A DNA stretch of 64,000 nucleotides from Xiphophorus maculatus. Its lineage: Eukaryota; Chordata; Actinopteri; Cyprinodontiformes; Poeciliidae. Shown one piece after another: positions 1-39,074 of the stretch. The stretch spans positions 22,276,751 to 22,340,750 of the forward strand of contig NC_036460.1 of assembly GCF_002775205.1 (NCBI RefSeq), in the 5' to 3' direction. The notes under the pieces were generated by a model. It was not told where the DNA came from. It did no database searches and worked only from the letters and a program-made list of their open reading frames with translations. Positions within the stretch are counted from its first letter, which is position 1. Each line of letters opens with the position of its first letter. The position numbers and the translations under genes are program-made.

Positions 1-3000
1 GATAAAATTTTTGTAAATAAAAACAAAAGGTCTTGCGGATATCTCTCGCAAATGAATCCGTTTTAGGCTGATTTACGTTTTTAACAGCCAAGTTCGCACT
101 TGAGCTTCTGTTAATCCAGTTGTTATTCTGTCATGCTATTTCCACGATGCCTCAGAGCTCCGCCCCAGTGGAATGAGTAGTTCTGCTTTGATGCGTAACT
201 TAGAATTTAGATCAAATGACGTAAAAGTTTGTTTGTCTCTGCTCCTGTCCACTCCAGCCAGATTCATCTCCAAGCAGATCCTGCGTGGTTCCACGCAGCT
301 TTTCTTCATTTCCATACCCAGGGGTGTGCATAAATTGTGGAACGATTAGTGCAATTAGAAAGGCCCCCGGCACAAAAGAAATTGTTTTATTAACGATAAT
401 AATTAAAAAAAATATAGGATCCACATCCACAATTAAATGAATGGTATATATTCACCTTTCCTTATATTTGGCAGTAAAAGTTAAATGCTTCCCCTCCTGG
501 ACCAAAAAGCAGACATTGGTATTTACTGAACGTCCCCCTGCAACTTGCCTGATGGGATTTATTTTGCAAATGGCATTCAGATTTAATTTTTTTAGCTTTG
601 TATAACTTATCAGATTTACGTTGAAGGAGAACAAACATTACCCTTTAAAACGGATTACAACACACACACTGAAGGTTATTTCCATGTGAACAGTTTGTCA
701 TTCTGATCAGAAAAGCAAATAAACAGTTAACGTTTGACAGAAAGAGACCAAAGTTTGAGTTGTCAGACTTATACCTGTCAGACAGGTCACATGCCATTCA
801 TTCTGCTCTTCTCCATAATTATTCCATTATTGTAAGTCGTTGAAACACACAAAGACAATTAACTTTGTGATATCAAAAGAAGTTTAGGTTTGAATTTGGA
901 AACGAAGGAGGAAGTAATAAAAACATCTTGGTAATTACATTTACACAATCATTATCATTATAGTTTTTGCTCACCTGCCACGGATGATTTTTTTTATTCT
1001 GTAGGTGCTGGTGAATGTAGAATCCAAAAAGTATCAAGAAAATTGGACAGAGATCAAGAGTTCCTGTTGGAGATTGTTCAATCTTTTCCTCGGAGGGCCT
1101 TCAGCACCAACTTTTATAGCTCCAACAAGCAAACACCCTCCAATGTTTCTTCATCCCAACACTCCGCCCTCCTCTTCCTGCAAAGCAAACACACACACTC
1201 CCTCTCTCTCACTACATCCTTGAACACACACGATGAGCCCTCTCACTACATTCAACCCCCCCTGTTCCCACTCCCACCCACCAATTGAGGTGTTTTGTCC
1301 TTTGTTTTCGCACTTGGGCGTAAATTTTGTGAAACTTAATATTGGGCTTTAGACACCTTGTGGGAAGTGTGATTTGAAAAAAAAAAAAAATCTTCTCATC
1401 TCCATGGTCAAGTGTTGACCCATATGTATTGTTTCTGCAATATAAATGCTCTCATTTAATAAAAATAAATGAATAAATAGGTCAAGCATATTGCTTGACC
1501 TAATTTTTATTAAAGTTAGTTCCTCTTTGTAGTCATTAAAACCGACTTTAATTTAACGTTTTATACAGGGATTTAGTTGTGTAGATTTTGCAAAAAGCCT
1601 TGGGACTGTTTTTGCTGTAAAGGGTGTGTCACGCCATTCCTTGCTGAATGGATGGATTTACAGTATACGAAAAGCTGTTAACCCCTGCTCAGAAATGGGA
1701 AATATGCTACTCACTATTTAATCCAAGAAGGGTGAATGCAGCAATAACTATTCACGAATACTAGCAGAGGGATATGTGATACCATAGTGAAGCCTAGCAG
1801 CTTTATAATCTAATATTTCCCTACTCTTTGTGAAAAGGATCAGTTACATTTTCCCGTGGTCATTTCCTTGTGGGATTTTACTGGAAAAACTGGAAACTTG
1901 TTACCTTGAAGTAAGATAAAAAGATATTTTTTCCTGAAAACCCTTTTCTTGTGCTTACTGTAAGTGAGCGGTAAATGTGTGAACAAAAAGGCGGGGGTAA
2001 TTTTCTTTACCCGTCTGTCTACAGCTGATAATGTGACAATAAGAGAAAGAAACTATTTTTCAGAAATGTTACTAAAGTGAAGGCAACGATATTCATTGGA
2101 CATAAATATTTCAGTGAATATCAGAATATGGTTTAAAACAATGTTCACAGTTTTGGACAAAAGCAAACAAATTGAAGAACAATGTTGTTTGTGTTGTTGT
2201 TGATGTGATTCACATATGTGAATAAGATCCATGCATTAGAAAACCTGCACTAATATAACCTTTGACTTGTCACTTATAAAATAGAGGTGAAATCCACTAT
2301 GCAAAGCATGATGGACGGTGCATAACTCCAGACAGCCGGCCACTCTTGCTGTATTCAACGGAAATATAGAGATTTGCATGCACTGCCAATATTTATATTT
2401 TTCAAATGAGTTTCAGCCACAAAACATGACAGGGTTAGTTTGTGAGAGGAAAATAAGAGCCAAACAAAAGAGATATGTTGAAGAGCACAATGTGCTTTTC
2501 CATACTGACAGTATTCTGGCTTTGTTACTTCGATAGCATATTGAAACAGAGTAATGTGTCTTCTGTGGTTGTCACAAGGGGTCCACTGATCTAACTTTAG
2601 GGCCTGGAGCCAGTAAGGTTTCTACATACTGATAAATTCACATGATAAAAAGATAGTTCTTAACATGCAGTATCAAGGGTCACATTAATGGAATATTTTC
2701 CGTACTTGACCAGTATATATATATATATCTATATATATATGTATATTTGACTCATCCAGCATTTCAACAAGCAACAAAATGGAGCTGGAAGATGTTAAAC
2801 AAAATCTGGGAGAAGTTGCACCGCTTACTCAAATGGTGTAAAATCAAAACGCAGTAAAATCCTAAATAAAAGAATATGTCGGGTTTACTTGAGGCATGGG
2901 CCTCCGATTAAAGTTAATCAGTCGGGTTGCATCTGGCTCGGTTGAGTGGGGTTGAATTTTTTTTTTTGGCCTGATCTAAACTTTAGCACAGATTTTTCTT

Positions 3001-3350
3001 CCAGATGTGGACCAGGTGAAGCGCTCATAATTTACGTTTAGTCACTTAATTTCATTGTTCTGTCAGTGGTGAGATACAGTTGACTGATTGTGTGATACTG
3101 TCAATCAAAATGATGGAAAACAAAAAAGCCTAACATGACCTCTGTGCTGTATACCCGTCAGTGTGGGTCACCTCTTGCAAGATGCAATGTTAGAGCTTGT
3201 GCAATGTGTTGAAATTGCTATGTAATATTGACTTCATTTTTAGCTTTACATCATGTCATAATATTGTTTATTCCCTCATTAAAAACATAGCTGTAGTGTT
3301 GCCTTTATTCTTTCGTGCATGTTACAGAAACCCTTTAATTTCCATGGCAA
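1..3350. other. Left flank without a recognisable gene
   Basis: I find no exon that can be tied to a known family. A pyrimidine-rich tract ending in TAG at about 1005 looks like a splice acceptor, and AATAAA motifs follow at about 1460-1475. A terminal exon of a + strand gene is therefore conceivable at about 1006-1480, but its translation (to about 1220) is low-complexity Ser/Pro/Thr/His and matches nothing I recognise. A short imperfect AT tract lies at about 2712-2742. In mammals TMPRSS4 and SCN4B lie on this side of IL10RA, but no serine protease or Ig-domain exon is visible here. Confidence 0.4.
1478..1502. repeat. Perfect 25-nt palindrome with nuclear-receptor half-sites
   Basis: Two 11-nt arms (TAGGTCAAGCA and its complement) flank the loop TAT. 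The outer parts of the arms are AGGTCA and TGACCT, the classic nuclear-receptor half-site as an inverted pair. It sits just after clustered AATAAA motifs, so an RNA hairpin near a 3' end is an alternative reading. No function is demonstrated. Confidence 0.6.
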
Positions 3351-3364
3351 CCATTCAGCTATGC

Positions 3365-3625
3365 ACAGCTCCTCCTTAGAGCTGCGATTTCCCAGCTCCC
3401 GCCTCTACCACAGCTCCCCCACTCCTCTTCAGACTAGCCTGCAATAATTGGCAAACACCTGGTGGAACCGTGCACCTGCCGAGCTCACCATACCAGCTAC
3501 TTCTCAGTGCAACGTTGTAAAATTGTTATTAAAGGGTTAACAGAGGAGCTATGCTGTGATGACTTTCTGAAGGCGGAGTTTAATAATGAGCAGGAGTTTT
3601 TAAAGAGATAGAGGGCCAATTTCAA
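3365..3625. repeat. Probable degraded interspersed repeat
   Basis: The stretch from the CT-rich block at 3365 to 'gagatagagggcc' near 3615 resembles a dispersed fish element I have seen adjoining genes. I cannot see terminal repeats or a target-site duplication, so the boundaries are approximate and the class is unassigned. Confidence 0.25.
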
Positions 3626-4931
3626 GGTGTGAAATTAGGAAGTAATAATTATTTTATCATATTTGATAGCATTTTTATAGCGAGTGTAGTTAACATAGTT
3701 ACTTGATTGTGTTATAAAATCGCACTATGTGCCTTGAAAACACATAATACTGCCCATTAAAAATAAGGTTTACCGCTTGCCCTCAAAAACTCTCCCTTCT
3801 CACAGAGTATAACATTTCTTTGCAAGTGGAAGTCATTGATTCTCCTTTTCTTGTTAAATGAATTATGTAGCATGATGAGGCCTGCCAGCAGAAAACCATT
3901 TCCACATTCTTCGCTGCACACCACTGGCTTGATGCTTCACTAGGCGTGTTCCCATAAAACTTGTGGAACTAAAAATATCCAAGGTTGCTGCAGACTAAAG
4001 ATTGTTCTACATCAATCGTTAACATTCGTCAATCAGACGTTTGCACAAGCACAGAGTAAAGCAGACATTGTCATACCTGTGACTGAGTTGTCTCTTGTTC
4101 TTTCAACTGCTTTGGGAATAAAGGAGCTTGGACTTGTTTGTAGGCTTCCTCCTTCCTCCTCATCCATATCTGACTAATCTCAATGGATCCTTTCCAGCGG
4201 CCTCATGTACAAAGGTGGTTATGAAAATGTGGTGCACACTCTTTTCCCCTCGAAGCTTCAGGTGCATCTATATAAAAAAAAAATGACTGTGGAAATGTGT
4301 ACAGCCTCATCTTTATGACTGGCATGCATTGGCAGACATTTCCACACTGACACATAGATTGTATGTTGGTACGATATTAGTCAGAGGTCACAGTAGCTAA
4401 ACTTTTTTTTGTCTTTTTGACTGATAATTCCAAATCCACTTTTGTCTGCCAGTTTTTAAAATAGCAATATTTGATTCATATCATTGAAGATCAGATTAAC
4501 TCAATTTATTGTCTCATTTATTTTTATTCAACTTTTTTATATTTTGGCTTTCGGATTATTTCCTAATTTTTATGAAACTCTATATTGTAGAAGTAGCCAT
4601 TTGCAATTCTTATACCAGACTTATGTTTTGTTTATTTGGATATAAATATGCTACAATTAAGGATTAAAATCGAGTTTTAAACCTATTAAGTGGCCTAAAG
4701 AGCCACACACGCCATATACTGTATATCAGACTGCCAATACTGAGTTCATAACAAACGGTTACACCGCTTTCAAAGAGTTTAATTGTCTTTCAAGGACAGA
4801 TGTCACACTTCTGGCAACTCTTTTATTCGGAATAAAAGTTAATCCAGTGAAGATATTATAGGAAACCAACCGCAGGCAACGAGATGGAGGGAGGGGGGAA
4901 GAATCTAGGTTGGACGTTTGAGAAGTGAGTG

Positions 4932-5154
4932 ATCAGGATGGCAGAAGAGAATGAGCCTTTGTTACAAACAGTAGCAGATAGTCTTTACTGATCTCAGATA
5001 CCGGATGCTCACTTCCAGTATTTCCTGAACTTCCACCACTCGCACCTGATGACCCATAAATCGTTCTCGTACAAGCAACCTCAGGATGATCGTAGCTGCC
5101 AGAACCCAGAGACTCACACCTTCCTCCTGGTTTACATGGACCTAAATTGCTCAC
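4932..5154 (-). other. Unassigned ORF, possible terminal exon
   Basis: Read on the minus strand, a plausible acceptor (ACAAAAGCAG) near 5155 is followed by an open frame of about 73 codons to a stop near 4932. It encodes a Gly/Ser-rich stretch (about residues 30-46 hold SSGASGGSSGN), one Cys pair near the start, and an ISKDYLLL segment near the end. Such composition would suit the tail of a membrane receptor, but I recognise no family and no upstream partner exon with matching phase. It may be chance. Confidence 0.15.
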
Positions 5155-6170
5155 CTGCTTTTGTGTAATCGAATGTCTTTTGAACTTTTGCCTCAGACAG
5201 ATGGCATGTCATGGCTATTTTGATGTTGAGCTGGACCAATATAAATTTTCAAATTTTCCACTCGAAGTTTGGAAAAGTCAAGATGCAGCATAAACATGCC
5301 CTACATGGGGAAAATTGGAAGTCAGTTTATTTTTCTGATAAAAGTATTTAAGTTAAAGTACTTAAGTTTGCATCAGCAACATTTTATATTCTTATACAAG
5401 TAAGAGAAAGATAAAACATTTTTGCTTTATCCTCAATTAAATGAAGACATCTATTGTCTTCAGAAATCTTTGTGACATTTTGTGTTTTGCAGTTAAGCCC
5501 ATGATGTCAGAGACAGACTTACTCACCGAACTTAAATAACAGGAAACTCTCAACCACAAGGTACTGATATATGCTTTGTTGATGACTGACACGTGCTTTC
5601 AAACATGTACAGAGATATTCACACAATATGATATGATAAAGGCGATGTATTCTACCTACCTAGCAGCTGTTATAACCTTAATAAACATTTAGCAAACAGT
5701 CATAACATAAAGTTATGGAGACAAACTTTCAAAATGGATCCCAAAATGCTCACTGCTTTCAGAATTATGTGTTAGCATAGGTAAAATAAACAGGGGCGTT
5801 TGCTTAAATACCTTTTATTTTTAAGTTAGAATTTGTGTAATATTGTAGGTGACATGACTTTGCAAGGTCAAATGGTTTTGGGGAAAAACCTCAGAGGATT
5901 TCCTCTAACACAAATGGCTGCACTACTGAACTTCACCAGTGCCTTGAAAAGCTAGTGAAACTTCTTGAACCTTTTCGCATTTTGTCAACAAACCTTTGAC
6001 CTTCACACAACAGCTGTACTGATTTATATTGAGACTGAATGACACAAAAGTGTAGTTTACTCTTTACTAGTGAGGTGATCTCTACAGATGACCTCACTGC
6101 AGAGGTGTCCTTATATAGAGTACCCGAGTAATGAAGGCTGGATACAAATGCACGTCAAAACTGTCAGATT

Positions 6171-6370
6171 GGGCGTGCCGTGGTGGCGTAGGGGTTAGCG
6201 CGACCCATATTTGGAGGCCTTCAGTCCTTGACGCGGCCGTCGCGGGTTCGACCCGACGACATTTGCCACATGTCTTCCCCCCTCTCCTTCCCTGTTTCCT
6301 GTCAGCCTACTGTCATATAAGGGACACTAGAGCCCACAAAAGACCCCCTGGAGGGGTAAAAAAAAAGAAA
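6171..6370 (+). mobile_element. tRNA-derived SINE
   Basis: The 5' end carries RNA polymerase III internal promoter boxes: an A box TGGCGTAGGGG at 6184-6194 and a B box GGTTCGACCCG at 6245-6255. A body follows that includes 'tttcctgtcagcctactgtc', and the copy ends in an A-rich tail at about 6358-6370. This organisation defines a tRNA-headed SINE moved by LINE machinery. The sequence resembles a family that is abundant in teleost genomes. It is non-coding; open frames across it are incidental. Confidence 0.8.
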
Positions 6371-6487
6371 ACTTTCAGATTTTTATTTGTAAATTAATTT
6401 AAACTTTGTTTTTTACCCCCATCCATTTCACATTTAAGCTATCCTGGTTAAAAAAAACAACAACAAAAAAAAAAAGTCCCTTTCCGT

Positions 6488-6840
6488 ACGCTTTGCTTCA
6501 TACATAGGGTCTGGACGATTGTTTGCTGGAGGCGTGGACTCTGATGTTTTCAATTTTACCGAATCGCTAAAGTTTCTCCGTGATGTAATGCATCAGTTTG
6601 ACGTTATGAAAAATTGCCTGTTCTGTGAAGAAGAAGAAAAAAAAAACTGCAAAGAGAGAAATGCTGAGACGAGAAAACAAGATGGCTGTTAATGTTAATT
6701 CAATTTTTGGAAGCGTAGGCAACACAAAGTGAACAACATTGTTCACTTCCTCCTCTGTAATGGCTAAAACTACTGGAATTCTACTGGAAAAATCCAAGTC
6801 AGTGAGAAAAAGCCCAGGTGAAGCACTGAAGGGAGATTAG
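6488..6840. repeat. Dispersed repeat, copy 1 (partner at 39.1-39.5 kb)
   Basis: Several blocks recur in the same order at about 39080-39483: GCTTTGCTTCATACA near the left end, CTGCAAAGAGAGAA, AGATGGCTGTT followed by ATGTTAATTCAAT, and GCACTGAAGGGAGAT at the right end. The copies differ by substitutions and by insertion or deletion, so this is an old non-autonomous element. I see no clear terminal inverted repeats. A minus-strand ORF across it is not a gene. Confidence 0.65.
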
Positions 6841-7798
6841 CATAGCTTGGATTTGATTAGGAAGATAATGACCCTACTTAGTGTTGCTATGTTATTAAAA
6901 TCCGAGTAAAATCTGTTGAAGTATGTGGTCGTAACATGACACCATGGGAAAAAGTTTGAGGTGTGTGCATGAGTTTGCAAGGCATTGTATTGCAACAACT
7001 TCATTACCTTTTTCTGTATTACAAATATAAACATCTGTACAGGCATTCATTTGCAGTGAAGACGAATGCCAGTTTATTTTGAAAATGCCACACTGTGCTA
7101 AGATCAATAAATAAGATAAATCACTTACCCATACAGTTATCTGTTTTGGATACAAATGAATTTGGGACTTTTTTACTTGAAGTCATTGCTTGGTATACTT
7201 CTGAGTCAGTTAGTAAAAAGCACTAATATTTCTTTCTGAGTCATTTGTTTTGAATTTGGTTTCACCATGAGAAAGAGCAACAGCGTAGTTATCCTGTAAG
7301 AGTGCCACGTCATCTGTCAAAACAGGTGTTAACCCCCACCTTTACGTAGTAATGGAGGTCAGATGATTAAAAAGTACAGCTGCTTTCCTTGATGTTTCTA
7401 GTTTTGCTCATAGCTGGGGTTTCTTCAAAACTGGGGCAAAAAAAAGAGGCTTTCACCACAGTATCAGTGTACTCCGGAACGAGCTTTTAAAGCATAAAAA
7501 TGACAACAACATCCCATCAGAATCACTTAAAAGTTTTCTAATGAAGGGAGAGTGAGTTGTAGGCAGGACAAGCAAAGGAGATGGACCGGTTTGAAAAAAT
7601 GTCTGGTATGGGGACATGACAAGAAGACGTAGGCAAAAGCAGACAGAAAAGAGAGCTCTCCGTTTTAGCTCTTCAGATCCAGGGTAAAATAATCTTCTGA
7701 AAATCTTATGTCAAGTCAAAGAAGTGGGTGACAGAACTCAACTTTGGCAGGCAGGAAGAGGGGAAGAGAAGAAAAGCGGTCATTGTGGCTTGACAGGC

Positions 7799-8988
7799 AT
7801 GGGGAATAGTGGTAAGGATCCAGCTTTTAAGAAAGATTCAGTTCTATGTCATTAAGTCTTACAGCCAAGCAAGACATTCTGAATTTTAACAATCATTTAC
7901 CTTTACATTGATTGCAAGTTTTTTTTATATACTGCCTTTTTATGATGTTAGGGTGAGGAACTTGAGATGTGTTCTATAAATGGAGTAGTATGGTACTTGA
8001 CTCACAACCTAGTTTTTGTCTTTCCACAGACGTTTTTCTGTCTTAATAAAGTATCCATTAATAACAAATATGTACAAACTGGTTATATTAAGCCCATGCT
8101 GTCTACTTCATCTTGTAAAAATTAACACCAATAATGAAAGACGTTATAAGTTCAAAAACACTCAGATGCCACTCTTGCAGCATGTATTTTTTACTTGTTT
8201 GTTTTCGACACGCTTCAGAGGATATCTGGACGTTAACCAGTCTAAGGCCATCTGTGTTTGTGTTCACAGGAAGCAACGTGAACTCAGCAGCGGTTGGGAT
8301 CCTTGTGGGCTTCGGGATCCTGGCAATCCTCTTTACTATTGGCATTGTGCAATTCTGCTGCAAGTATAAATGCAAGAAGTTGAAAAAGTGCTGCAAGAAA
8401 AAAAGTAAGATAAAAATGAATAATACTTGGGCTACAGCATCTTGGATATCACCCACCACATACAAAATACAGCTAAAGACCACTTAAGCAACACCATTTA
8501 ACACATGATGCATGAAGTGTAATACTTTAAGTTAAATCAACCTTGTAGGCATCTTTTTTGATAGATCAATACATCAGAATAAGGAGTTTACAATATTCTC
8601 GTCTCCCTGCTATTTGCCACTTTCCAGAGTTGAATCAAAAAGGGAACGCGTGTTACTTTCGACTGATTTTGGATTAATATTTAAATCCCCGAAACCAGTA
8701 TGCAACTTTATACTCACGGAAGCAAAACAACTACAGTCATCCTTTGTTGCTGAAAACCTTTCCCATTATGTTTCTTTCTTCTTTGCAGAGCCAACAGTGA
8801 AAGACAGAGTGCTCACGTAAGTGTATTATTCTGTTCGGCCTTTCTTTCAAAACCGTATATGCAAGTTTTATTTCCTCATTTAAAATTGCCTTGTGGTAGC
8901 ACTCAACATTGCTGTGTTTTGACTTTACAGCAAAGTTGGCTTGAAAAAGTCGAAACCTCCCTTCACAATCAGCAGCTCCGTAAAATAA
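7799..8988 (+). CDS. smim35: Small single-pass membrane protein, SMIM35-like, 4 exons, 77 aa
   Basis: Coding exons are 7799-7811, 8270-8404, 8789-8816 and 8931-8988. All introns are GT-AG with good donors (gtaagg, gtaaga, gtaagt), and the phases join exactly to one frame of 78 codons including the stop. The start ATG has G at -3 and G at +4. The protein begins MGNSGS (Gly2 and Ser6 fit an N-myristoylation consensus). It then has one hydrophobic helix at about residues 11-33, then a juxtamembrane Cys/Lys cluster (Cys 34, 35, 39, 45 and 46) suited to palmitoylation, then a basic tail ending PPFTISSSVK. It lies tail-to-tail with il10ra, the position and orientation of human SMIM35 beside IL10RA. 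The gene structure is seen directly; the SMIM35 name is inference from synteny, size and topology. Possible poly(A) signals are at 9772-9777 and 10016-10021. Confidence 0.6.
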
Positions 8989-9771
8989 CAAGTCTGTGGA
9001 ATTCGGAAAACTCCTTCACAATGAAAGGAGCCCACCTCATTTTTCACATCCTTAAGCAGCATGAAGCTTATTTTTAAAGCTTACATTACTGTTTGTGTAG
9101 TTAAACTTAAGACATTATTTGATCGCATCTTAATTTTTGTATGTTGTTCTGCTTTGTAACTCCTGCATAGGTAACTTTGCATAACTGTGTTAAAGCTTTA
9201 ATTCCTCTTTTTTTTTCTTGAAGCAAAAGTATTCCAGTTGATAATTTAAAACCAATGCTGTCTCTTCTGATTCTAGAGTACACATAAAGCAATCACTTCA
9301 TCTGTAAATAGATATTGTCGTGCAATTTAACGTTGCCAGTTTTGATTTGTGTCACTAGAAACCGACAGCATGAGGTGTCTCGTGATGATAAGTCAGTTAT
9401 GCTCACTCGGAGAAACAGAGAGGAGAAGAGACAGAGTTCACTGCTGATAGTAACTGTCTGAGGCAAAGGGAAGAATATCTCACCAACTCAGCCACAGGAA
9501 CCCGGTACATCAGTTTTCTTATAAACTGCGGGTGACTTCCCTCCAAATTCACATGTCTACCGCCCATCTGAAACTTTCTATGGTTAGTGGAACTACAATG
9601 TCTCACTGTTTTTCCTCTAACGAAACTAGAAGTTGTTTGCTAAAGATTTTCTTTTCCTCAAAACAGTTTGCAGTGGGGTAACTTGATGTTGCCTATCGCG
9701 TTGAGTGAAAAACAAACATCTGTGCTCTTGATGTCTCAAAACAGAACTCCAAAGGTTTTGACAAAGGCTAA

Positions 9772-10021
9772 AATAAATGTTATTGTTCATTTCTGACATT
9801 TTATGTGTTGGATTGATTCCCTATTTGGTAGAAGAGAAACCTACATGGTATGCTATTTTTTCGGTGATAGCTTTATATACTAAAAGGATTCTGAATTAGT
9901 GGTTTCGATTGTAGATAGCAAATGCCTTATGTCTGTATAGCATATGTAAATTGAATGTAATATTTAGGTTTTTTGAGTGATTTATTGTTGAAGGTTTATT
10001 ACATCAACTGAAAACAATAAA
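9772..10021 (+). terminator. Candidate poly(A) signals of the small membrane protein gene
   Basis: AATAAA occurs at 9772-9777 and again at 10016-10021, downstream of the stop at 8988. Either could end the transcript and would give a 3' UTR of about 0.8-1.0 kb. The choice cannot be made from sequence alone. Confidence 0.35.
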
Positions 10022-10114
10022 AAGGCTTTCAAAAAACTGATTTTTTTTTAAATCAAGAAATTAGTTCAACAATGTATAAAAAGAAGTTACAATTGAAAGA
10101 GCAACTTGCAGACA

Positions 10115-10245
10115 AAATTTCTTTGACCAACACAAAGGTTTACATACCATTCCTTAGGATTTGGCAGAATTGCCTTTTAAACTACTATATGCCTTTGGTC
10201 ATCCTTCAAAAAGCGGTTCACAATAGCTTGCTCACATCTTATATA
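10115..10245 (-). mobile_element. Tc1-like transposon fragment
   Basis: The phrase 'aaaggtttacataccat' followed by 'ggttcacaatagcttgct' resembles internal sequence of Tc1-family elements of fish. Only a fragment remains and no terminal repeats are visible. A 101-codon open frame at 10072-10377 runs across it in the wrong sense and is not a gene. Confidence 0.4.
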
Positions 10246-11494
10246 CCCAGACCCAGATATAAATTAAACTCAACTTTCCCTGCAATATTAGAAAGATGCA
10301 GAAAATATAAAGAGGAAAGAATTGGACTAATTTTTAAAAACAACGGATTAGTGAATTATCCTATTAAATCGTATTAAGTTATAGTATATTTCTATTAGAT
10401 GTGCATACCTATGTGATTATATTCATTAGGTTTGAGCTGACCTGCCTTGCCTGTGCGCCCTAGTTAGACAAAAAATTAAGACGTGCTGTATTTTAGCTTG
10501 TTTGTCTTTGGTGGTATTTTGTTCTCTACTCAAGTTTCACATCTGCGGAGGCCTAAATTAACTTTCCAATCTTATTAAAAAAATATTTTAGCTCGGGTTT
10601 ATGCATATGGTCGATACTGAGGATGAAAGAAAAGGAAAATGGCAGATGGCAAGAAGAGAGTGAGAAAGCGGTCAGAGAGGATAAAAATGAAGATTTTTAA
10701 GATTAAAGATGTCTTAATCTTTAAGGAGATTAAGACAGGCTTAAAAAACTCGGATGAGGCTGTTACTTGTCAACAGTTGAGTGATGCAATGCACCATATT
10801 CAAAATTCATTGTGAAACAGTCCTTATTTAAATATACTTTAAGCATTCATTGACACCAGAAAATCCCATGTAACAGTATACTATGCAGAATATAATTATG
10901 TGTAAATATATTTGTACTGTAATGGTACTTTTTAATGTTTGATGTTATGTTTATGTGAGGGCATTACTCTATTCTGTATTAGAGGGGAAAGTCATTTTTC
11001 ATATTTGTGGCACTACTGATTTGCACTGTTACAAAAAAAAAAAAAGAAATTAAATAAATGCATCTGTACATAAACCGCAACAACCCATGCAGATCAGCTT
11101 GCAGTTAGTGGCAATTGGGTATGCATGAACGGAGAGTTGCATGCTCAAGTTGACTAGAAAGCCAAGTGATAATGTGTGCTTCACTTTTTGGTTTGTTGCA
11201 AACACTTGTATAATTTAACAATTGTAAATGTGCCTTTCATATGACATTGTGTTTCTAAATAAATAGCTTACAACACAATTAAAACCAAACTGATAACTCC
11301 AATTTCAGGTTATCACCAAGAACACTTCTATGTGCAACCTGTTCAAAACACACCTAGTCAAAACCCAGATACTCTAGAGTCAACATGTATGAGAAATTTA
11401 GGTCAAGAGTCACCAATACAGTGATTACAGTGAGTATACCTATGATCAATATAAAGTAAGATTAGCAATATCACTGTTGTAAAATATTGTATAT

Positions 11495-12375
11495 TCTTGT
11501 GGCATAACATTATGACCACATATCTTATAGTTTGTTGGTCCCATTTTCTCCAAAGACAGTCTCGATCTATCAACACATGAACTTTACAGGATGCACAAAA
11601 GTATGCTGTGGTCTCTGGGAACAATATGTTGGCAACCTACTGTATATTTGAAGTCCTTAGACTAAAAGCCCAAAGTTACACACTGTCTCTGCTGGCTTGT
11701 ATTTTGCTGCCAAAAGTTCCTCAGGTTAGCAGTCCTCTTCCTTCATCGGCACCTGTGTGATGTAAAAAAAACAACAACAAAACAAAAGGACGGCATCCGT
11801 CATCAGAACCGACCACCTTCTTCCATTGCTTCATGGTCCAGATCACATTCTGATGTCTACTGTTACATCCATTGTTGGCACTTATAATCAATAAGTCTTC
11901 TGACACAAACATACAAAACACATCTGCAATGCAGCTGAGCATGAATGCGGTTTTTCTGATGTAGCCTGTGACCTGAAAATTCAGATAGAGAGCATGCAAA
12001 CTTTTGCACATAGTTATCTGCAGGTGAACAAAGTCTAAATGCACAAGCATGGGAACCCTGACCAGTCTGCAGAATTGCTGCCCCGTTAGCAACAAACTGA
12101 AATGAAATGACATTTGGCACCATCTCCTCACACACACATAACGCTCTCAGCAATCTAAGCTAAAGTAGCTTGTTTGTTAGATTGCACCAAACTGGATGGT
12201 TTTCGCTCCTTAACAGGTACAATGATTAAAAGAGAGACCCAAGTACAGTCGACACCATGTTGGTTGTACTTGGGTCCAACCAACATGGACAACTTGTGGG
12301 TTGTCACTGGTCATAAAGTTGAGCCTGACTGTGTTTTCTTACAGCATTTTAAATTGCAATACTAGGGACATAAAG
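11495..12375 (-). mobile_element. Non-autonomous/degraded DNA transposon carrying a nested insertion
   Basis: The left part holds 'gcataacattatgaccaca' and later 'gtatgctgtggtctctggg'. The middle holds 'gaccaccttcttccattg' and 'ttcatggtccagatcaca'. The right part holds 'aagtagcttgtttgttag'. These blocks and their order match a DNA transposon family very common in teleosts, read antisense to its transposase. The frame is broken throughout. The element is interrupted at about 11878-12043 by a second repeat, described separately. Confidence 0.6.
11878..12043 (-). repeat. About 165-bp dispersed repeat nested in a transposon (copy 1)
   Basis: The reverse complement of this stretch matches 19685-19850 at roughly 95% identity by eye, beginning TTAGACTTTGTTCACCTGCA and ending near GTCAGAAGACTT. 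It interrupts the surrounding transposon between 'cattgttggcactt' and 'agcatgggaaccc', so it inserted later. Both strands stay open across much of it, which produces paired ORFs of 138 and 96 codons. The same pairing appears at the second copy, so the openness belongs to the repeat and not to a gene. Confidence 0.75.
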
Positions 12376-12439
12376 TTTTTTTTCATTTTGCTTTGTTATT
12401 TCTTAATCTCCTGATTAACATCATGACATCCTCTCTGTA

Positions 12440-13235
12440 AGAATTAAATGAGCTCCACAAGGTTCTATAATTCTTTGATCCTATCTTTTAAAAAATAAAA
12501 ATGCGCACCACGTTCAATTTTAGCCTTATCAGGCATTGATAACAGCAAAAAGCTAACCATGATTCAACAACTTGTAGAGCCAACTAGTCACCGTGGCTTG
12601 ACGTTGTTAGTCTCTGTATGACTTAATCAGTCTCCCACATCATTGTGCAAGAATTGTTGCCCACTCTTCTTAAAAACATCTCACTTCGCTGAGGTTTCGG
12701 GGCATTTGTTTCTGTAGGTTCACAGCTGTCTTAAGTTCCTGCCACAGCATTTCACCCTAGTTGAGGTTTTGATTTTGAGCAGGCTGTTGCAATACCTTGA
12801 TTATCTCTTAAACAGCTTAAGATTTGCTGTTGTGTTTGTCTTGTTGATGACCATGTTTTAGGTAAGCTCTCACTGTCACACGAGTGGCTTCTCATTTGAT
12901 TCTGGAATATCTTAGAATAAAAAGGAGCTTATGGTTAACTCTGAGGCTGCAAGGTAGCCCAAATCATCCCCTACCTTTGTGTTTGACAGCTGGTGTGAGG
13001 TGCTGTGCAGATTTCCTGCATTTTCTGTGCAATTCTACAGAGGTATGTTCTAAAGGGTTTGCTACAGCTTCTCTAATTAATCCACACTTGTGTCAAGAAT
13101 TTAACTACTTGGCTGATGCACCAGTGGAATACCCCAGCCTGTAGGAATATACCCACACAATGTGCTTTTGCCACCCCTACATAGTGGAGCTGGTGTTTCC
13201 AAGCTTGCAAGATCCCCTCATTTTCTTCCATATGT
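12440..13235 (-). mobile_element. Degenerate DNA transposon relic
   Basis: Phrases such as 'cagtctcccacatcattgtg', 'ttgttgcccactcttctt' and 'cctgccacagcatttcacc' correspond, in antisense, to transposase sequence of a Tc1/mariner-type family widespread in fish. Frames are short and broken. Boundaries are approximate because no terminal repeat was found. Confidence 0.5.
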
Positions 13236-13240
13236 TACAA

Positions 13241-13615
13241 CGGGGGGGGCTGCACAGTGGTGCAGTTGGTAGCACTGTTGCCTTGCAGCAAGAAGGTCCT
13301 GGGTTCGATTCGATTCTCGGCCCGGGGTCTTTCTGCATGGAGTTTGAATGCGTGGGTTCTCTCCGGGAACTCCGGCTTCCTCCCACAGTCCAAAAACATG
13401 ACTGTTAGGTAAATTGGTCTCTCTAAATTCTCCCTAGGTGTGAGTGCGAGTGCATGGTTGTGTGTCCTGTCTGTCTGTGTTGCCTTGCAACAGACTGGCG
13501 ACCTGTCTAGGGTGAACCCCGCCTCTCGCCCGGAACGTTAGCTGGAGATGGGCATCAGCACCCCTACCAACCCCACTAGGGACCAGGGTGTTAGAAAATG
13601 GATGGATGGATGTTA
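13241..13615 (+). mobile_element. tRNA-headed SINE-like repeat
   Basis: An A box TGGTGCAGTTGG lies at 13258-13269 and a B box GGTTCGATTC at 13302-13311. The family-typical body follows ('ggcttcctcccacagtcc', 'gactggcgacctgtc'), and the 3' end is ATGGATGGATGGATG. The B box is followed by a second CGATTC, a small local duplication. The family is one of the most frequent interspersed repeats in percomorph fish, which supports a teleost origin for the window. Confidence 0.75.
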
Positions 13616-14496
13616 AAATGGTCGTTTTGGCCAAACATTTGAAATTTAGATCACAGGGCATATCTTTAAAAAGTAAAAGTCTTTTTGTTTATGAGCGAAT
13701 TTGTTAACCTGGCTTTTTATTTTGGTTTCGGAGTAATGACTTCTTCCTCTCTGAGTGGCTGCTTGGTCCATTTCAGTACACTACGGGTATGACCATTTTT
13801 ACTAACAGCAATCAGCATTTTCAAAAGGTATTTAGCTTTTTGTCATGCTAAAAACACACATTTTACACAAAAAGATGTTCAACTTTAGGACAGAGAAACT
13901 GTCTCCTTCCTGAATAGAAACAATGGGAAATGATTATAAAGTTTTATGACGTAGCTATATGTAAAAACCTAGAATGTACCATAATTATACATATATAATC
14001 CACATATTAAGCAGAAGACTACAGACTAGACAGGATTCAGTTCTCTCTTTGAGTAATTCAGACAAGATATATTTATCATAATACTTTGTAATGTTCATCA
14101 TTTCAAAAAAGATCGTCTCACTTCCTCTTAACTTTATTGCACATAAGAAGAAATAGGTCACATGATGTTTTTTAATGGTATCTGGAAAAAATAAGGCCTG
14201 CTGTTTTAATGTGTTCCTTTTTACCATGGCAAAAAAAACAACTGTGCTCTGGGAATTTTTTTAAGCTCGGTGGATGTATGTGCAGAGGAAGTGTTTGTTT
14301 CCTAGTTTAGGTTGTGTAAAAAACCACAGCACAGGTTCCTGTAGTTCATCTGCATTTGGGGATCCCGTACATGTTTTGTTTCAGGGTTTTCCTGCCTAAA
14401 TGTTGTGTCATTTGTTTACTGAGCGACCGAGAACATTATGGGTGGAATTTTCTAGAAGAATCCAAAGAGATGGTTTTGAAATATGAAATAAATACA

Positions 14497-14502
14497 TTTA
14501 TT
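14497..14502 (-). terminator. il10ra: Candidate poly(A) signal of il10ra
   Basis: TTTATT on the + strand is AATAAA on the coding strand, about 570 bases beyond the il10ra stop at 15070-15072. No other gene lies between, so 14480-15069 is most simply the il10ra 3' UTR. Confidence 0.5.
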
Positions 14503-15069
14503 TTTAGAAACACAACATAAGTAGTCTCAACAGAATGTAGTCTAGGATGGCTACTTGCTGAGGCTGAACAAAAACAGCATGAACGTTTCGCTCCTTTTTT
14601 TTTTGCTTCTTTTTCTGCTCCATTTAATACTGTAGGCGTACGTGAAGCAGTTCTCCATTAAAAAGAAAAAAGAACTTGAAAGACGACACGTCGTAGACGG
14701 AGGAGGTGAAGTCGTGAAATGTTAAAGCGGGTAACTGTCACAGTTTTTTTTCACAGTGCTCCTCGTACCGGTTTCATTTCCGGCATGTGCAGTTTAGTCA
14801 GTCAACGATTCACCCAGAGAAGCAGGTTTGAAGAACTTCTTCAATCAACAAGCTCACAAGGCATCAGGGATGGTTAACAGTCAGTAGTTTTCCCATTTAA
14901 CTTGTTTTTTTCCCCGCTTGGGTTAAAACCAGAGTGCGACTTGATTTGTTTCGTCCTACCGGCTGAATCTTTCAGAGCATTTCGCAACCTATTCACTTCC
15001 GTTTCAAAATATTCAATGTGATGTGTACGTCAGGAGGGATGTATAAATAGTGTTGCATTCCACACCATG

Positions 15070-18000
15070 TCAGTCAGATGTCAGCTGAACGTCACAGAGG
15101 GAGAGGGATATATTGTTCATGTTGCTGTCCTGTTCGTATTTTGACGTCAGTAGGGGAAATGTGTCAGACACATGTAAAAGTGACTCTTCCAAATTTATTA
15201 TAAGAGAGTCCATGTGTGTTTTACCGACTCTGCTTGAGTCCACCAGGTCACTTGTCCCACCAAGCAGCACGTTTTCGATGCACACTGCTCTGCACAGTTT
15301 GGTTCCTTCGGATCCGTAACTGCCGTGTCTGTGGCACCAGCTGCACTGGCCTGTTAGTGAACAGATACAGGACTGCGGCCCGGGCTTGTATCCCGTCACC
15401 ACGTCAGCCAACACTGAGTGTGCAGGGATCTGTTTTAACATGTTCTCACTGCCTCTGCTTTGAATCTGCATCTCAGACGGGCTCTGGGTGCGGTAGTTCC
15501 CAACAATGACTGTCTCGACAAGAGATTTTGTGTCCTGGCTGTCAAGTTTCAAGAACGAGGAATGGTGTGGGCAATCCAATCCCATCCCGCTGTCCTCCCT
15601 CTTGCTGACATCATCCGCTTCCATGCTTTCATCCTGCATAGGGTAATCTGTGTGACTGTGGGCTGAGATCTCCGGGCTTCCCATGCTCCCACAGCCGCTG
15701 TCCTCTTGTCTCTCTTGATGTTGTCCTCTGTTGTCTGCCGAGGAGTTCGCCTCTACGCTGACCCCGCTGTCCAAGCTGGTCCTCCTGTTCTCCTCCTCAC
15801 CATCCTCTATTACTGTAAGACTGGTCTCGGTCACTGCGGGTTTTGCGTCAGGTCTGTAACTGGAAAGAAACCATCCTTTGTCCGTGACCACCTCCATGGA
15901 CCCTTCTGTGACAGAAAGCGGCTTCCAGCCACTCACAGGGGATTTCTAAAGCGGGGGAAGAGAAGATGAAAAGAAATTATGAGCCATGTCATGTTTTAAC
16001 CATTTTCATTTTTAGTTGTTGTTTTTTTCTTTAATCTTACCAATGCTACAGGCGTTTTTGCAGGCCGCTTTAGGTAAACCAACGGAATGCAGATCACAAC
16101 AACGACAACTATCAGGGCCCCAAGACTAGATAAGGATGATACAGCTATTATGTAAAATTCTGAAAGAAGAGAAACAAAATCATTTTACAAACCGATCAGT
16201 TCAAGGCAAAAGTATGCAAACATAACAAACTGAGGCAATTTTAGGGAATGTTTTTTCCCTGTATTACATCATCTTGATTTATGCAGATAATTTTTCTTCA
16301 TTAACAAACTTTTCCACATTTTGTAATGTTGCAAACAGAAACTTCATTGTATTCTGTTGGAATTTTATGTGCTTGATTAACACAAATGCATACGTAGTTG
16401 TGAAACATGTTTTTTGATGCAAAAATTCAGTGGTACAAGTCTGTATTAAAGAGGTGCGTCTTGGACGCGTCACTACCAGCTTTGCTCTCAAGAGACTGAA
16501 ATGTCTGCTCAGTCATAGCAAAAAAGCTATGAAAAACAAAGCATCTGTGAGCACCAAGTTTCAAGTCTCACCACACATTCTAAATTTAGTTTCGCTGTGG
16601 CTTTATGCTTAGGGTTATTTTCCTGAACCTCTGCCTAAAAGTCTCAGGTCTTTTGCAGATTCCATTCAGCTGCTCTGCTCATCCATCTTTCCATCAACTC
16701 TGACCAACGTCCTACAGAATGATTCTGTCGCCTCCATGTTTTACACCAGAGAAATGGTGTGTTCAAGTGATGTGCAGTAAGTTTTCAGTCATGTATAATA
16801 CTTTGCGCATAGGCCAAAAAAAATAATCAGTTTTAGTCTAATCTGACCAGCAGAAATTCTTTCTTATGTCTGGTGTTTCCCTTGCATAGCTTATTGCAAA
16901 ATAAAAAGTAATTACTTTGAAAACTATACACATTTCTTATTACATCATTTTCCACAAATATCCACATCCTGTAGAAGAGAATATTTCTTATACATTTTAT
17001 ATTAAAATCTAATAAAATGGTGGGTTTTCAAAAATGACCTTAAATTTTCTGTAGTAGATATTTATACAGAATTATAAGTCATCTTTTTTTTTCAAAAGGT
17101 CATGTAACATTGATGGATCTATATATATTAGAGTAAAGGGAGCTCAATGAAAACTCATGATATGCTTTTCTAGATTTTTTTAAAAACTAATTTGTTGTAT
17201 CGTGACAAAATTTGAAAATGTTAAAGATTTTGAAAAGTTTTGAACAGTTCTCTAAATTACTGGTAAGTGTAAACAATTTACTTTACCTTGCTCTGGGAGG
17301 AGCAGGCACTGTTTTGCAGACGCGTTGCTTTTGTAGATACGACCATTGGCTTTGACTTCGACGCTGACGCAGTACTTTTTTTCCCACTGGAGACCAGTGA
17401 AAGTCTTCTTCCTCCCTTCAGGCAATCCCTCATCGTCTTCCAGGTAAACTGTGGTAGTCTGGCAATCCAAAAAAAAAGAAAAATTACGTATCTGGAGTAA
17501 AGTATCTGGCTTTTACTCAATATTCATTTTGTTTATTACTGCTTATAAGTGACGTGTGAGTTGAAGTGATATTGTGGTTACCGAAGGCTATGTCCTGTCT
17601 AATTCTCTGACTCACCTTGTTTTCTTGATCAGTTTCCTCCAAATACAACGTGTAGACAACTCCATAGGGATAGATTTCTCTCAAGATGGGCTTTTCATGG
17701 ACATAGACTGTAAGTGTGCTGGAAGTAGCCCACAAACTAAAGGAAGGAGGCTGCAATTCACCTTTGAATAGAGAACATGTTGAAAATTATTGCAACTGAA
17801 GCTGAGTTGATCTGGATACAATTAATACATCCCTAACTGAAATACTTACCTTCATTTAGAAGAAATCTTTTCCATATCCAGTCAGACTGTTGATCTCCTT
17901 TGACGAGCTGAACTCTGACTTTATAGGAACTTGTATATTCTTTTATTTTTTTAATATGTGTGGTAAGGATGCAGTAGTTCCTTGCGATCCCCATGCAGCT

Positions 18001-19130
18001 GGATACATTAGCCCAGTCTGATGTGCCATACCTGAAGGCAGAATTTTCACCAGTCAATAAATGAGAAAAATGCGACTAATGAGATGGTACAGAGTCTTAT
18101 AAAAGCTGAACTGCTACTGAAATGTGTAACTCCAGTTGCAATTCACTCTCTGAAAACAACTATATATTTAAAACTTCAACATACCTTCCTATTTGAAAGT
18201 TATACACTGGGTCTGATGGGGCATTTTCAGGATTTTCCCACCGAACCGTTACTTCATCTTCTGAAATATGCACTTCCATATTTCTAGGCGGTGGAATGGC
18301 TGTTCCTGTTTCAAGAAAAAAATCATGTAAAAATCTAAGCATCTGCTTGTACAGTCATTTTAGCGTTTCCAATCACTGATTGCTTTAACATGACTTGCAG
18401 AGAGGAAACATCTGCAATGTACATTTATGCTAAATTTATGCTGAGAAGAGTTATCTTTAAACATTCTTGCAAAGAGTAGAGAGAAAAAAAGAGGAAGTCT
18501 GGTTGCAAATCATAGGACTGGTACTGGCTCTGGGGTTTTTTTCAGAAGGGGAACAGAGCATTACCCTTTCCTATGTGTGTGTCCTATTCATGAGAAAGAA
18601 AGAGAAAATGTTCTAATTGAACACTAAGGTCAACTTTAGTAATCAACGTCATGAATATCACTTAAGAGTACGGTTGAGTTTAAATTTGTAACACATCTTC
18701 CTCGCCATCAAACTCATACTTTAATAATAAGCATTTCATATTTATTTAATATTCACTGATATTTATTTTTTGGGTAAATATCTGTCAAAGTGTGATCAAT
18801 AAAAATTATGAAAAATTTACTTTATATATTAAGATTTACTTATGCTATCTTTACTCCACTTATAATTTTCCACCAACGTTTGGGAGAAGTAAAAATAACT
18901 TTAAGAAGTTGTTGTTTTTCACAACTTATAAACAGTCTCTGTATTAACTACCACTATAAATTACCAAATTTCACCATCCACTGATACTGAACAAGTCAGT
19001 ATGACAAGTACCTTTTAAAATCTAAAACAGGACTTAACATTTATGATCAGTAAAGGTTATAATTACCTGAAACATGTCCGATGAATAGGATTAGGAAGAC
19101 CAAAATCAGTGGCTTATATTTCTTATCCAT
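15070..19130 (-). CDS. il10ra: Interleukin-10 receptor subunit alpha, 7 coding exons, 559 aa
   Basis: Coding exons in gene order are 19130-19067, 18305-18185, 18031-17850, 17761-17616, 17458-17287, 16159-16041 and 15945-15070. All junctions are GT-AG and phase-consistent. Exon 1 is a signal peptide (MDKKYKPLILVFLILFIGH). Exons 2-5 form two fibronectin-III cytokine receptor domains (RYGTSDW, YCVSVEVKA, CLLLPEQ). Exon 6 is the membrane helix, about residues 232-253. The last exon is a 291-residue tail with two YxxQ motifs (Tyr369 in YPMQ and Tyr419 in YRTQ), the known STAT3-docking type, and a DSGCGS motif at 350-355 like the beta-TrCP degron of mammalian IL-10R1. The length is close to human IL10RA (578). 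IL10RA binds IL-10 and signals through JAK1 and STAT3. Naming rests on class II receptor architecture, tail motifs and synteny with tmprss13; another CRF2 member is less likely. Confidence 0.88.
16276..16915 (-). mobile_element. Tc1-like transposon relic in il10ra intron 5
   Basis: The start 'cttttccacattttgtaatg' is the typical inner terminal sequence of this fish Tc1 family. Antisense transposase blocks follow, such as 'ccatctttccatcaactctg', 'atggtgtgttcaagtgatgt' and 'ctaatctgaccagcag'. Frameshifts and losses show it is dead. Its transposase sense is the same as il10ra. Confidence 0.7.
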
Positions 19131-19400
19131 TTTCAAGCTCTTGAGAAGAATATAAACACTCAGTCAGAATCCTTCAACAGCTCCCAGCAAAGTCCTTCAT
19201 TCCTATGATCAGTGAGGGATCACTGAAACCATTATCAGTGTAGAAAACTATCAAAGGCGCCGATGCGGCTTTCTCTTCTGCGATAGCTGTTGATCTGAAG
19301 AAAAAAATAAAACCTATCTCTAAATCTCCTTTCGCTCCCTCCCACCGTCTAGATGATGAGTTTCCTGCTGTGACATCATCAGTGACGGGGTTTCTGGTTT
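19131..19400 (-). promoter_or_regulatory. il10ra: Probable il10ra 5' UTR and promoter region
   Basis: This is the stretch immediately upstream of the il10ra start codon at 19130. It includes a TGACATCA element near 19370 resembling a CRE/AP-1 site, and purine/pyrimidine-asymmetric GGAA-type motifs (ttcctgctg, ttcctctttt) typical of ETS-driven haematopoietic promoters. No TATA box is evident. Site assignments are inference. Confidence 0.3.
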
Positions 19401-19684
19401 CACATCTCTCCTCCTCTCTCAGCCTTTACTTCCTCTTTTCTTTGTCTTATTTTCCTTTCCATAGTCACAGTGCACAGGCTGATCTGCCATCTCACTGTAC
19501 AAAACAGAGGAAAGGGGAAAGTATTGGGAATATCCCTTTCACTTTTTTTTATGGCTTTCATCATTATTTCATAAAAAGTAGCACTACATTGTGGGGGGAA
19601 TTTGTATGTCTTATCTTACTTCTTTCTACACAAGTTTACAGAAATAAAATACATACAGTCTATACAAATTTATTCCGGAAGGTG

Positions 19685-19850
19685 GATTTTAGACTTTGTT
19701 CACCTGCAGATAACTATGTGCAAAAAATTGCATACTCTCTATCTGAATTTTCAGGTCACAGGCCACATCAGAAAAACCGCATTCATGCTCAGCTGCATTG
19801 CAGATGTGTTTTGTATGTTTGTGTCAGAAGACTTGTTATTGATTACTTCT
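19685..19850 (+). repeat. About 165-bp dispersed repeat (copy 2)
   Basis: Inverted partner of 11878-12043, with nearly identical sequence including 'ctgcagataactatgtgc' and 'aaaaaccgcattcatgctca'. Here it is not inside the other transposon family, so the two copies arrived independently. Long open frames on this strand come from the repeat. Confidence 0.75.
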
Positions 19851-19937
19851 TATTCATTACTTGGATCCATGTGGGTCCTTTTCACCATAAATTACGATTA
19901 TTCTAATGCAGAATTACATCATAACCTTAACAAATAG

Positions 19938-27987: not shown

Positions 27988-30900
27988 ATGGCAAAGAGAG
28001 ATGCGGTAGGTTTTTACCTCAATTTGTATCTTTTCTTCAATATTTTGTGAAGCTTATCAGAATTGAAATGTCACTTTGAATTGTGGATGTGTTTGTTTTG
28101 CTGGATAGAATCTCTGTCTAAATCTGTGTAGAATGCTGGTTGTCTGTGGACCCAAGTGGGGTGTGATAAAAACTTTTTATGATGTGAAAAAGACCAATTT
28201 TGCCTTCCTGGTAAGATTTCTCATGGGATTTTCAGTAACTTATTTTGGAGACAGTTTCAAATGCCTCAAAGAAACAACTTTTAGTTATCCAGACAATATG
28301 CTGTAGTTACTGTACAACACATCCTGTTAATGTACAAACTTATAGAATTAAACATGTGAAAATGTAGTTGGAATTGACACCTTTTGTGATAGGAATACCA
28401 GTAACTTGACAATGAGCTACAAGCACACAATGTTCTAGTTTTTGAAGAGGAAAAATAAGACTTAAAATAATTTAAAAGAAAATGAAGAGTTTATGAAAGT
28501 ACAATACTGAAGAAAAAAATTAGTTCAAACATTTAAGTAATGGGGAAAAAATATAAAATTAACTCTTGAGTTTAGTTGTAAGCCAAGCTCTATGAATGCA
28601 GCAATAACACAATATCTGGGAAATGTTTTCCCTAAGCAACAAAACCAGATGTTGTGTACAGTAAACCTCATTTAGAGCAGAGAAACTACATATCACAAAC
28701 TTGTCCGGTCACATTCACGACTTTCTATAAATACTGAAGCTAAGGAGGGAATGAATAGTTGTGCCAACTTGTGCTCAAACAGGCTGAGTCACATTACATG
28801 AAACATTAAAGAATTTTAGTTTCCAATTTGACTGTCATGCGACTCCCCTGCAAACAAATGGGGGCTCAGTAAAATGTTGTGAATTTATGAAAGTTTCTTT
28901 TCTAGGATACTTTCTTAAGTTATCTTACCTTTCAGAGATTTAAGGTAAGCTTCTAATAAAAAACAAACAAAAAAAAAATCAGAACCATAGTCCCAAAATA
29001 CTTAGGTAGTGAAATAGATTTAATAAGAAAGCATATCATGTTTTTAGGTGGATTTTCTTATTTACTGGTCAAATCTCCCTGCCTTGATTTTGCACACATA
29101 GGTAGCAAGTTGTCTCTGAAAACACATTTAAACCCCATATATTCTGATAAACACGTACAGGAAAAGTCATAAACATCTCACGACAGGCGTTCATTAACGA
29201 TGTTACTGTCAAAGTACGTGTTGGAAACAGTTGAAGAGAAAGAGAAAGCATTAAATAGATCGACATATATATATATACAGTGAGCCATACAGTGATGCAA
29301 AAGTACTCATCTTTTGACGAGAGGAGAATAATCCTATTTTTCACTTTTTAAAATTTGAAAATTGTGATTAATTTGTCTTCAGCCCCATTTGATACCCTGA
29401 AATAAGATCCAGCGCCAAGAGTAACAGTGTGTGATTTATTCTGTGTAAATACACCCGTTTTGTGAAGCCATCAGAGGATTATTTTCATACAAACAGCATC
29501 ACCCAAGAACAGGCAAAAAAGATATGAATCTGGATCATTTTTTGAGAGTTGGATTTGGTTAGGATCAGGCTAGGATGGAAACTGATCAGAGATGATTGGA
29601 AGATTGATGGAGGTGAATGTTGGCAGTGGGCACTGGTACAGATTGATGGGGGGAACTGGTTGGAATGGGAGGTCTGGGGATGACCTGGGAGTCTCGGGCA
29701 GCATCACAGGGGTCAAACTAAAACACATGTCATGATAAAACAATGTGACCCACTTACTTTGATGCTGCATGCAGTCTTAATTTAATGACATCGATGATGA
29801 GATGTGCTTTGTGTAGAGGAAAACTGCCTTGGCACATGTAAACAACAGGCTTCTCTGGCTAAAATGTGGAAACTGCACATGTGGGGAAAAAAATGGATAG
29901 AGGTAAATACAGGGTACTCTTTGAAAACCTTTTAGATGTTGTTAAAGATTTAATACTTGGGTGGAAGTTCAACTTCCAGCAGGACAATGACCCTCGACAT
30001 ACATAGGAATAGAGATTAAAAACATTTATGTTGGTAGAGCTCAACTAACATAAAGACTGACAGCCAACCAAAACTTTGTGCATAGAGTTGAAAACTGCTG
30101 TTCCGATTCTTTCAGTGTGATCAAGGTTGAGCCATTTTTAATGTGCACTTACAGTTAAAGGTGGTTTTATAGGGTATTGATTGAGGGTCTTGCCTATCCA
30201 GAAAGAATAAACATCATAGAATATTACTTTCACTTCACAATTATACACTGCAGTGTTGATGTATCACATAAAATACATTCAATGTGTTGTGATATCTGGG
30301 GTTGTTTTGAGTTTTGTTCTGTTATTTTTGTTAGATCTGTCTTGTTCCTGTTTTCAATCAGTTCCGTTCTTCTTGGTGTTTCTGGTTATGTTTATTTCTT
30401 ATAGTTTTTCTTTGTTACTTAGATTTTATTAGGTGTCTTTAGTCTGGTAATTCTTTATTGTTAGAATTATTTCCTGGTTCCTGTGTATTCTCTTGTCTCC
30501 TGTGTTATTTTCTCTCTCCCTCTCCTAAGTTTGCTTCCTGCTTGCTCCACTTGCACCTCCAATCAGCTCATCGTCTCAGGTCTTTTGTTCAGCATTCTAC
30601 CTCCTCAGTATTTAAGTTTCTCAATTTCAGTCATTACTCGCAGGATCCTTTTTTTCTACTCGCATCTCACATCGCATTACTTCTGTGTTCTCTTATTGCC
30701 TCCTTATGGTTTCTTTCCCCAGCATTTATGATTTGTGTTTTTGCTTTAGCTCCATCAATCTTTGTAAATTTTTGTTTTCTAATATTTTCAATAAAATATT
30801 AAAAATGATTCATCGTCCCGGTTCCTGTCTGCGTTTTGGTCCACCATCAACAAAACCTCACTTCATGACGTGTGTTTGCAATGTGACAAAATCAATAAAT

Positions 30901-38307: not shown

Positions 38308-38468
38308 TATCTCCTACATGACCAGCCTGGCTAATGAAGTCTGCACTGCAAACTCATGTTTGATGAAGAAATTGCAACATAGTGATGAGAAGAAGCTACA
38401 GACTGAAAACAATCATATAAAAGGTTACATGTTGGCTTATGGGGGAAAGATAAGTTAACTAGAAAGAT

Positions 38469-38474
38469 AATAAA
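38469..38474 (+). terminator. tmprss13: tmprss13 poly(A) signal
   Basis: AATAAA lies 162 bases after the stop codon at 38305-38307 and is the first such hexamer downstream, so a short 3' UTR is expected. Confidence 0.6.
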
Positions 38475-39074
38475 TACTAAAGAAGTTGATTCAATATCAA
38501 TGTAGCACTTTTGATTTTGGGTGTTTCACTCTTACATTAGCTGGGCTTCAAAAATGGCTCACCTTTCTATATTTAATTTTTGCCAATGACAGACCTTATT
38601 ATCATAATTCCACTGATCAAAGGTAGACTTTAAAAATGATGAAGGAATATAAATTTATAAATATATATATATGTAGAGAGAGATTGTCAATAGGTATGTT
38701 CTTCTTAGGGCAACGTCTGGTTATTGTTGTCTGTCTGTTTACAGTTTAGAAATGTACATTTTACTTTATACTGAAATCAAAGAGATTTGATACATGTTTT
38801 TGGAATTTTGTGAATATAAACAAATTTTTGTGGATTTTGTTTTTATTGTGTTCTTTGTTCACCTATTTTCTTCTTTTTATGAGTTCCCACAGTTGGAGAG
38901 GCACACAATTTCTTTAAGTCCATTGTGAAGCTTCCATAGATGATTTTGGGAGCCATGTCATTTCCTGTCTTTAGTCCACTGTGTGCAGCCATCCAACAGG
39001 AAGTTTAAGAACACTTCGAGATTCCCTGCAGAGAGACTTTGTCAATACATTGATTTTATTTTCCGCAAGAACTT

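Follow-up and report, generated by a model that had tools for sequence, protein, structure and literature searches.

A likely SMIM35 ortholog in Xiphophorus maculatus: a probable four-exon gene encoding a 77-residue membrane protein

A stretch of 64,000 nucleotides of contig NC_036460.1 of Xiphophorus maculatus, spanning its positions 22276751-22340750 and hereafter called the window, carries on its plus strand, at positions 7799-8988, four short segments that a preliminary description had read as the exons of a membrane protein gene matching SMIM35 in position and strand. Do these segments form a gene, and if so, which one? The overall explanation that we favour, with reasonable confidence, is that of a real, apparently single-copy four-exon gene, most likely the ortholog of SMIM35, the product of which would be a reverse signal anchor with a palmitoylated cytosolic tail. 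This is a known, little-studied kind of gene, and ordinary as a kind.

The four exons measure 13, 135, 28 and 58 bp, and joined they yield, with no adjustment needed, a single frame of 77 residues from ATG to TAA; the coordinates and the GT-AG borders of all introns agree with the initial reading. The coding part of exon 1 (7799-7811) provides the residues MGNS plus one base and ends at the donor GTAAGG. Exon 2 (8270-8404) encodes the predicted membrane helix and a juxtamembrane stretch rich in cysteine and lysine, exon 3 (8789-8816) comprises 28 bp, and exon 4 (8931-8988) encodes the KPPFTISSSVK tail, followed by the stop codon. The donors of exons 1, 2 and 3 rank 37th, 180th and 54th among the 3877 GT dinucleotides of the plus strand of the window, and the acceptors of exons 2, 3 and 4 rank 44th, 7th and 127th among its 3808 AG dinucleotides, all six sites being within the top 0.2-4.6% of the window GT or AG sites. 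The G+C content is 0.41-0.50 in the exons versus 0.34-0.36 in the introns. Codon log-odds amount to -1.2, +4.1, +0.6 and -0.1 nats for exons 1 to 4, respectively, and both alternative frames of exon 2 have negative values and contain stops. The support comes mostly from the splice signals and the open frame, not from codon bias. Downstream, the first of four AATAAA hexamers listed within the 1.5 kb that follow the stop (9772-9777, plus strand) is a candidate polyadenylation signal. No known RNA family reaches its gathering threshold within positions 5000-12000.

A small gene finder based on dynamic programming was applied to positions 7500-9300, with synonymous codon use taken from 12,581 codons at 30 GPCR loci of this genome, a splice background from the window, and splice and Kozak matrices and an amino-acid composition that were not trained on this genome. 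Its optimum reproduces exons 2, 3 and 4 exactly, extends exon 1 by two bases upstream to 7797, and places one or two further short exons ahead of it, the number of which is set by the intron penalty. Confidence in the gene model is lowest for exon 1, hence for the MGNSGS start. Among 19 start-donor pairs (donor score of at least 2, donor no farther than 6 kb before exon 2, frame open and in phase), the pair 7799-7811 comes narrowly first, with a score of 7.40 versus 7.10 for 7581-7605 on the same strand, a rival first exon in phase with exon 2 that encodes MDRFEKMS. As exon 1 scores scarcely better than this rival, the MGNSGS N-terminus is likely but not secure. A real gene with another start, for instance at 7581 or beyond a 5' intron that extends to 7796, in which case MGNSGS would not be the N-terminus, or not the whole of it, is the alternative to be taken most seriously, albeit a minority one: the two pairs score closely and the free optimum uses 7581-7605 together with 7797-7811, whereas the acceptor before 7797 has no pyrimidine tract, and 7799 scores higher and its ATG stands in a good context. 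Unspliced starts upstream of exon 2, at 8134 and 8182, were rejected (codon scores of -14.5 and -9.8, respectively).

The surroundings of the gene suggest its name. Left of the window, a TMPRSS-type protease is encoded on the minus strand (~260-2030 of the left-flank locus L006), in exons that match trypsin at E 2e-17 and SRCR_2 at E 1.2e-10, with a weak LDLRA hit (E 0.048). Its best match of solved structure, one frame being searched, is TMPRSS2, TMPRSS13 ranking lower, and from its domains and position it is taken as TMPRSS4. Pfam analysis of window positions 1-9999, on both strands and in three frames each, reports nothing at E ≤ 1, so any 5' exons of this protease located there would be devoid of a Pfam domain. 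On the other side, the minus strand encodes class II cytokine receptor domains at 17303-18318 (Tissue_fac, E 2.4e-9, over the cut-off; Interfer-bind, E 0.034, below it). A search of one frame against solved structures returned IL20RA as the sole receptor match (E 0.077), and domains and position lead us to take this gene as IL10RA-like. The open frame of its long last coding exon (15070-15945, minus strand) holds the sequence YRTQ, an instance of the YxxQ motif at which STAT3 docks, which would fit an IL10RA-like receptor. Further on, a TMPRSS13-like protease is encoded on the plus strand at 33014-38175, with trypsin exons over the cut-off, SRCR_2 just below its own, and a weak LDLRA hit below the cut-off; among solved structures, and with one frame searched, TMPRSS13 matches it best. 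Two FXYD membrane exons ensue on the plus strand, at 47646-47741 (E 5.0e-11) and 54257-54343 (E 2.9e-4), both found by the PF02038 genome search. The Pfam scans covered, in the window, both strands of 1-9999, the minus strand of 10000-19490 and the plus strand of 30001-39990, and, in the left flank, one strand each of loci L003-L006; for the rest of the window and of the left flank, L002 included, FXYD was the only gene sought, by the genome search.

The symbol SMIM35, which replaced TMPRSS4-AS1, denotes small integral membrane protein 35, the gene of which lies at human 11q23 in the order TMPRSS4-SMIM35-IL10RA-TMPRSS13-FXYD6. The fish gene lies between the minus-strand LDLRA-SRCR-trypsin gene and the minus-strand class II cytokine receptor gene, beyond which the TMPRSS13-like gene and then the FXYD exons are found as in the human order. 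The match in position and strand put forward in the preliminary description is therefore supported by neighbours inside and outside the window, and on grounds of position the name that suits the gene best is SMIM35. For the human genome, a passage of one published paper (PMC2956734) gives the order FXYD6, TMPRSS13, IL10RA, a clone-named gene (printed APOO2962.2), TMPRSS4, SCN4B and SCN2B. The fish product and SMIM35 are also alike as small membrane proteins, human SMIM35 being judged here by its name alone; the fish protein is short, with a single hydrophobic stretch. Left of the TMPRSS4-like gene, where SCN4B and SCN2B might be expected, the left-flank loci L003-L005 encode MRE11-, CEP57- and DOCK-type domains, so that the block seems to adjoin a different set of genes in this fish than it does at human 11q23.

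That the four-exon gene is the fish ortholog of SMIM35 is thus likely, on the evidence of position. Searching the 77-residue protein against its own genome (704.3 Mb, 101 contigs) returns the 7799-8988 locus only (exon 2, E 4.2e-24; exon 4, E 0.02), the two candidates at E ≤ 10 both being this locus and no paralog, and the gene is apparently single-copy. Three Pfam families match the protein at E ≤ 10 (best E 0.046), all below their cut-offs, NCBIfam reports one match, to a bacterial PTS accessory family and below the cut-off, and the PDB returns none at E ≤ 10. No relative was confirmed among 15 pattern stretches from viral contigs or 345 from prokaryote genome contigs. A fish-specific small membrane protein, lying by chance between the TMPRSS4-like and IL10RA-like genes and not orthologous to SMIM35, would agree with the lack of a Pfam family over the cut-off and with a link to SMIM35 that is one of position and not of sequence comparison; however, the slot and the strand are those of human SMIM35 and the gene order of the block matches the human one, which makes this reading improbable.

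That 7799-8988 is a real gene, presumably transcribed and spliced, is very likely. Of the 125,596 placements obtained by sliding its exon skeleton along either strand of the window, three were open with an ATG and a stop, one displayed all six GT/AG borders, and borders and open frame coincided at 7799 only. The four-exon model scores 19.4, a value reached by none of 2000 dinucleotide shuffles of positions 7500-9300 (best 14.2) and by none of 88 tiles chosen by the analyst as non-genic window stretches (best 16.5). With an intron penalty of -8, the optimum is 23.7, reached by 0 of 500 shuffles (best 13.9). The tile with the four-exon gene ranks 35th among 348, these overlapping tiles covering both strands of the window and of five left-flank loci and many of them being in real genes. 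Antisense models in gene-rich DNA score up to 34.6 (minus strand of locus L005, opposite the MRE11-type gene) and can outscore the four-exon gene, so the score alone is no proof of a gene. The TMPRSS13-like gene contributes no tile to the 40 listed by the gene finder, which, given this omission and the antisense scores, falls short of both full sensitivity and full specificity; the shuffles and the chosen tiles are consequently a fairer control where the opposite strand has no known gene. A chance assembly, in which splice-like sites in non-coding DNA would enclose by accident a frame with a hydrophobic stretch, might explain the weak or negative codon bias of exons 1, 3 and 4 and the ambiguity of exon 1, and would be in line with the spurious-looking antisense models that equal or exceed the score elsewhere. 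It is nonetheless very improbable in view of the shuffle and tile controls, of three successive donor-acceptor pairs in phase, and of the fact that only four window tiles score higher, all over the last coding exon of the cytokine receptor and two of them antisense.

The protein encoded by this gene exhibits one strong hydrophobic stretch, with a best 19-residue Kyte-Doolittle mean of 2.72 from residue 13, as expected from the single helix announced at the outset, and the five juxtamembrane cysteines reported among lysines are indeed present at residues 34, 35, 39, 45 and 46. Residues 1-11 comprise no lysine or arginine, while 17 such residues and one acidic residue are found from residue 33 on. 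According to the positive-inside rule, the basic flank of a helix faces the cytosol, and the charge asymmetry therefore predicts an N-outside, C-inside topology, which we consider fairly likely for a helix deduced from hydropathy. The translation contains no N-glycosylation sequon. An N-myristoylation site had been suggested for the MGNSGS start: the consensus requires Gly2 with Ser6 at a cytosolic N-terminus, and G2 and S6 are both there, but the predicted location of the N-terminus outside disfavours this modification, which appears unlikely on the basis of the charges. The helix (residues ~11-33) may insert as a reverse signal anchor, leaving a ten-residue N-terminus outside and the lysine-rich tail facing the cytosol. 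Situated near the helix and among lysines, the cysteines are possibly palmitoylated; in the arrangement that we propose, all five probably would be and would fasten the basic tail to the inner leaflet, which is acidic. The protein could then serve a larger membrane protein as a small accessory subunit or as an anchor, a role suggested tentatively, with a conjectural partner. Bolder still, and rather implausible to us, is the idea of a microprotein conserved among vertebrates, its lysine-rich tail palmitoylated and lying at the inner leaflet, regulating an ion pump or channel in an FXYD-like manner without being an FXYD itself.

The FXYD family (PF02038) lies in the same gene block and resembles the product of the four-exon gene: its members are small, with one helix followed by cationic residues, and are encoded by very short exons. 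That the 77-residue protein is itself an FXYD-type ion-pump subunit is most improbable and membership is rejected, since, despite a similar size and predicted topology, the presence of two FXYD exons in this block and a 14-residue match with six of 14 residues identical (E 0.014, in a single comparison), its translation lacks the PFXYD motif, PF02038 is not among the three Pfam families matching it at E ≤ 10, and none of the seven matches of the PF02038 genome search falls at 7799-8988. Other FXYD exons, located on a different contig at C3:14421646-14497517 and C3:24558943-24568859, represent five of these seven matches (4/5 over the curated cut-off).

The literature on SMIM35 is sparse. In the library searched, ten papers contain the symbol, none of them in its title or abstract, and three contain TMPRSS4-AS1; their titles, abstract openings and selected passages report no functional study of either, and nothing direct on the gene block in fish came up. 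A human fetal nasal atlas (PMC13090377) has, in its marker list, three genes for GnRH cells, SMIM35 among them. SMIM35 also belongs to six genes reported as decreased in infected lung organoids (PMC12929407), and a lipid GWAS (PMC5704019) lists TMPRSS4-AS1 as a non-coding gene. The present work provides a concrete exon model for a gene of an easily missed type and a fish entry to a little-studied vertebrate gene, of which, the fish gene being apparently single-copy, a clean knockout would be feasible.

Elsewhere in the window, a Tc1/mariner-type transposase remnant is found on the minus strand at 12607-12852, where it matches the Sleeping Beauty transposase (E 2.9e-8). Open frames at 11721-12146 (minus strand) and 19244-19937 (plus strand) have a translated segment in common (LQITMCK...LYLNFQVTG.IRKTAFMLSCIADVFCMFVSEDLL), and are therefore probably copies of a repeat.
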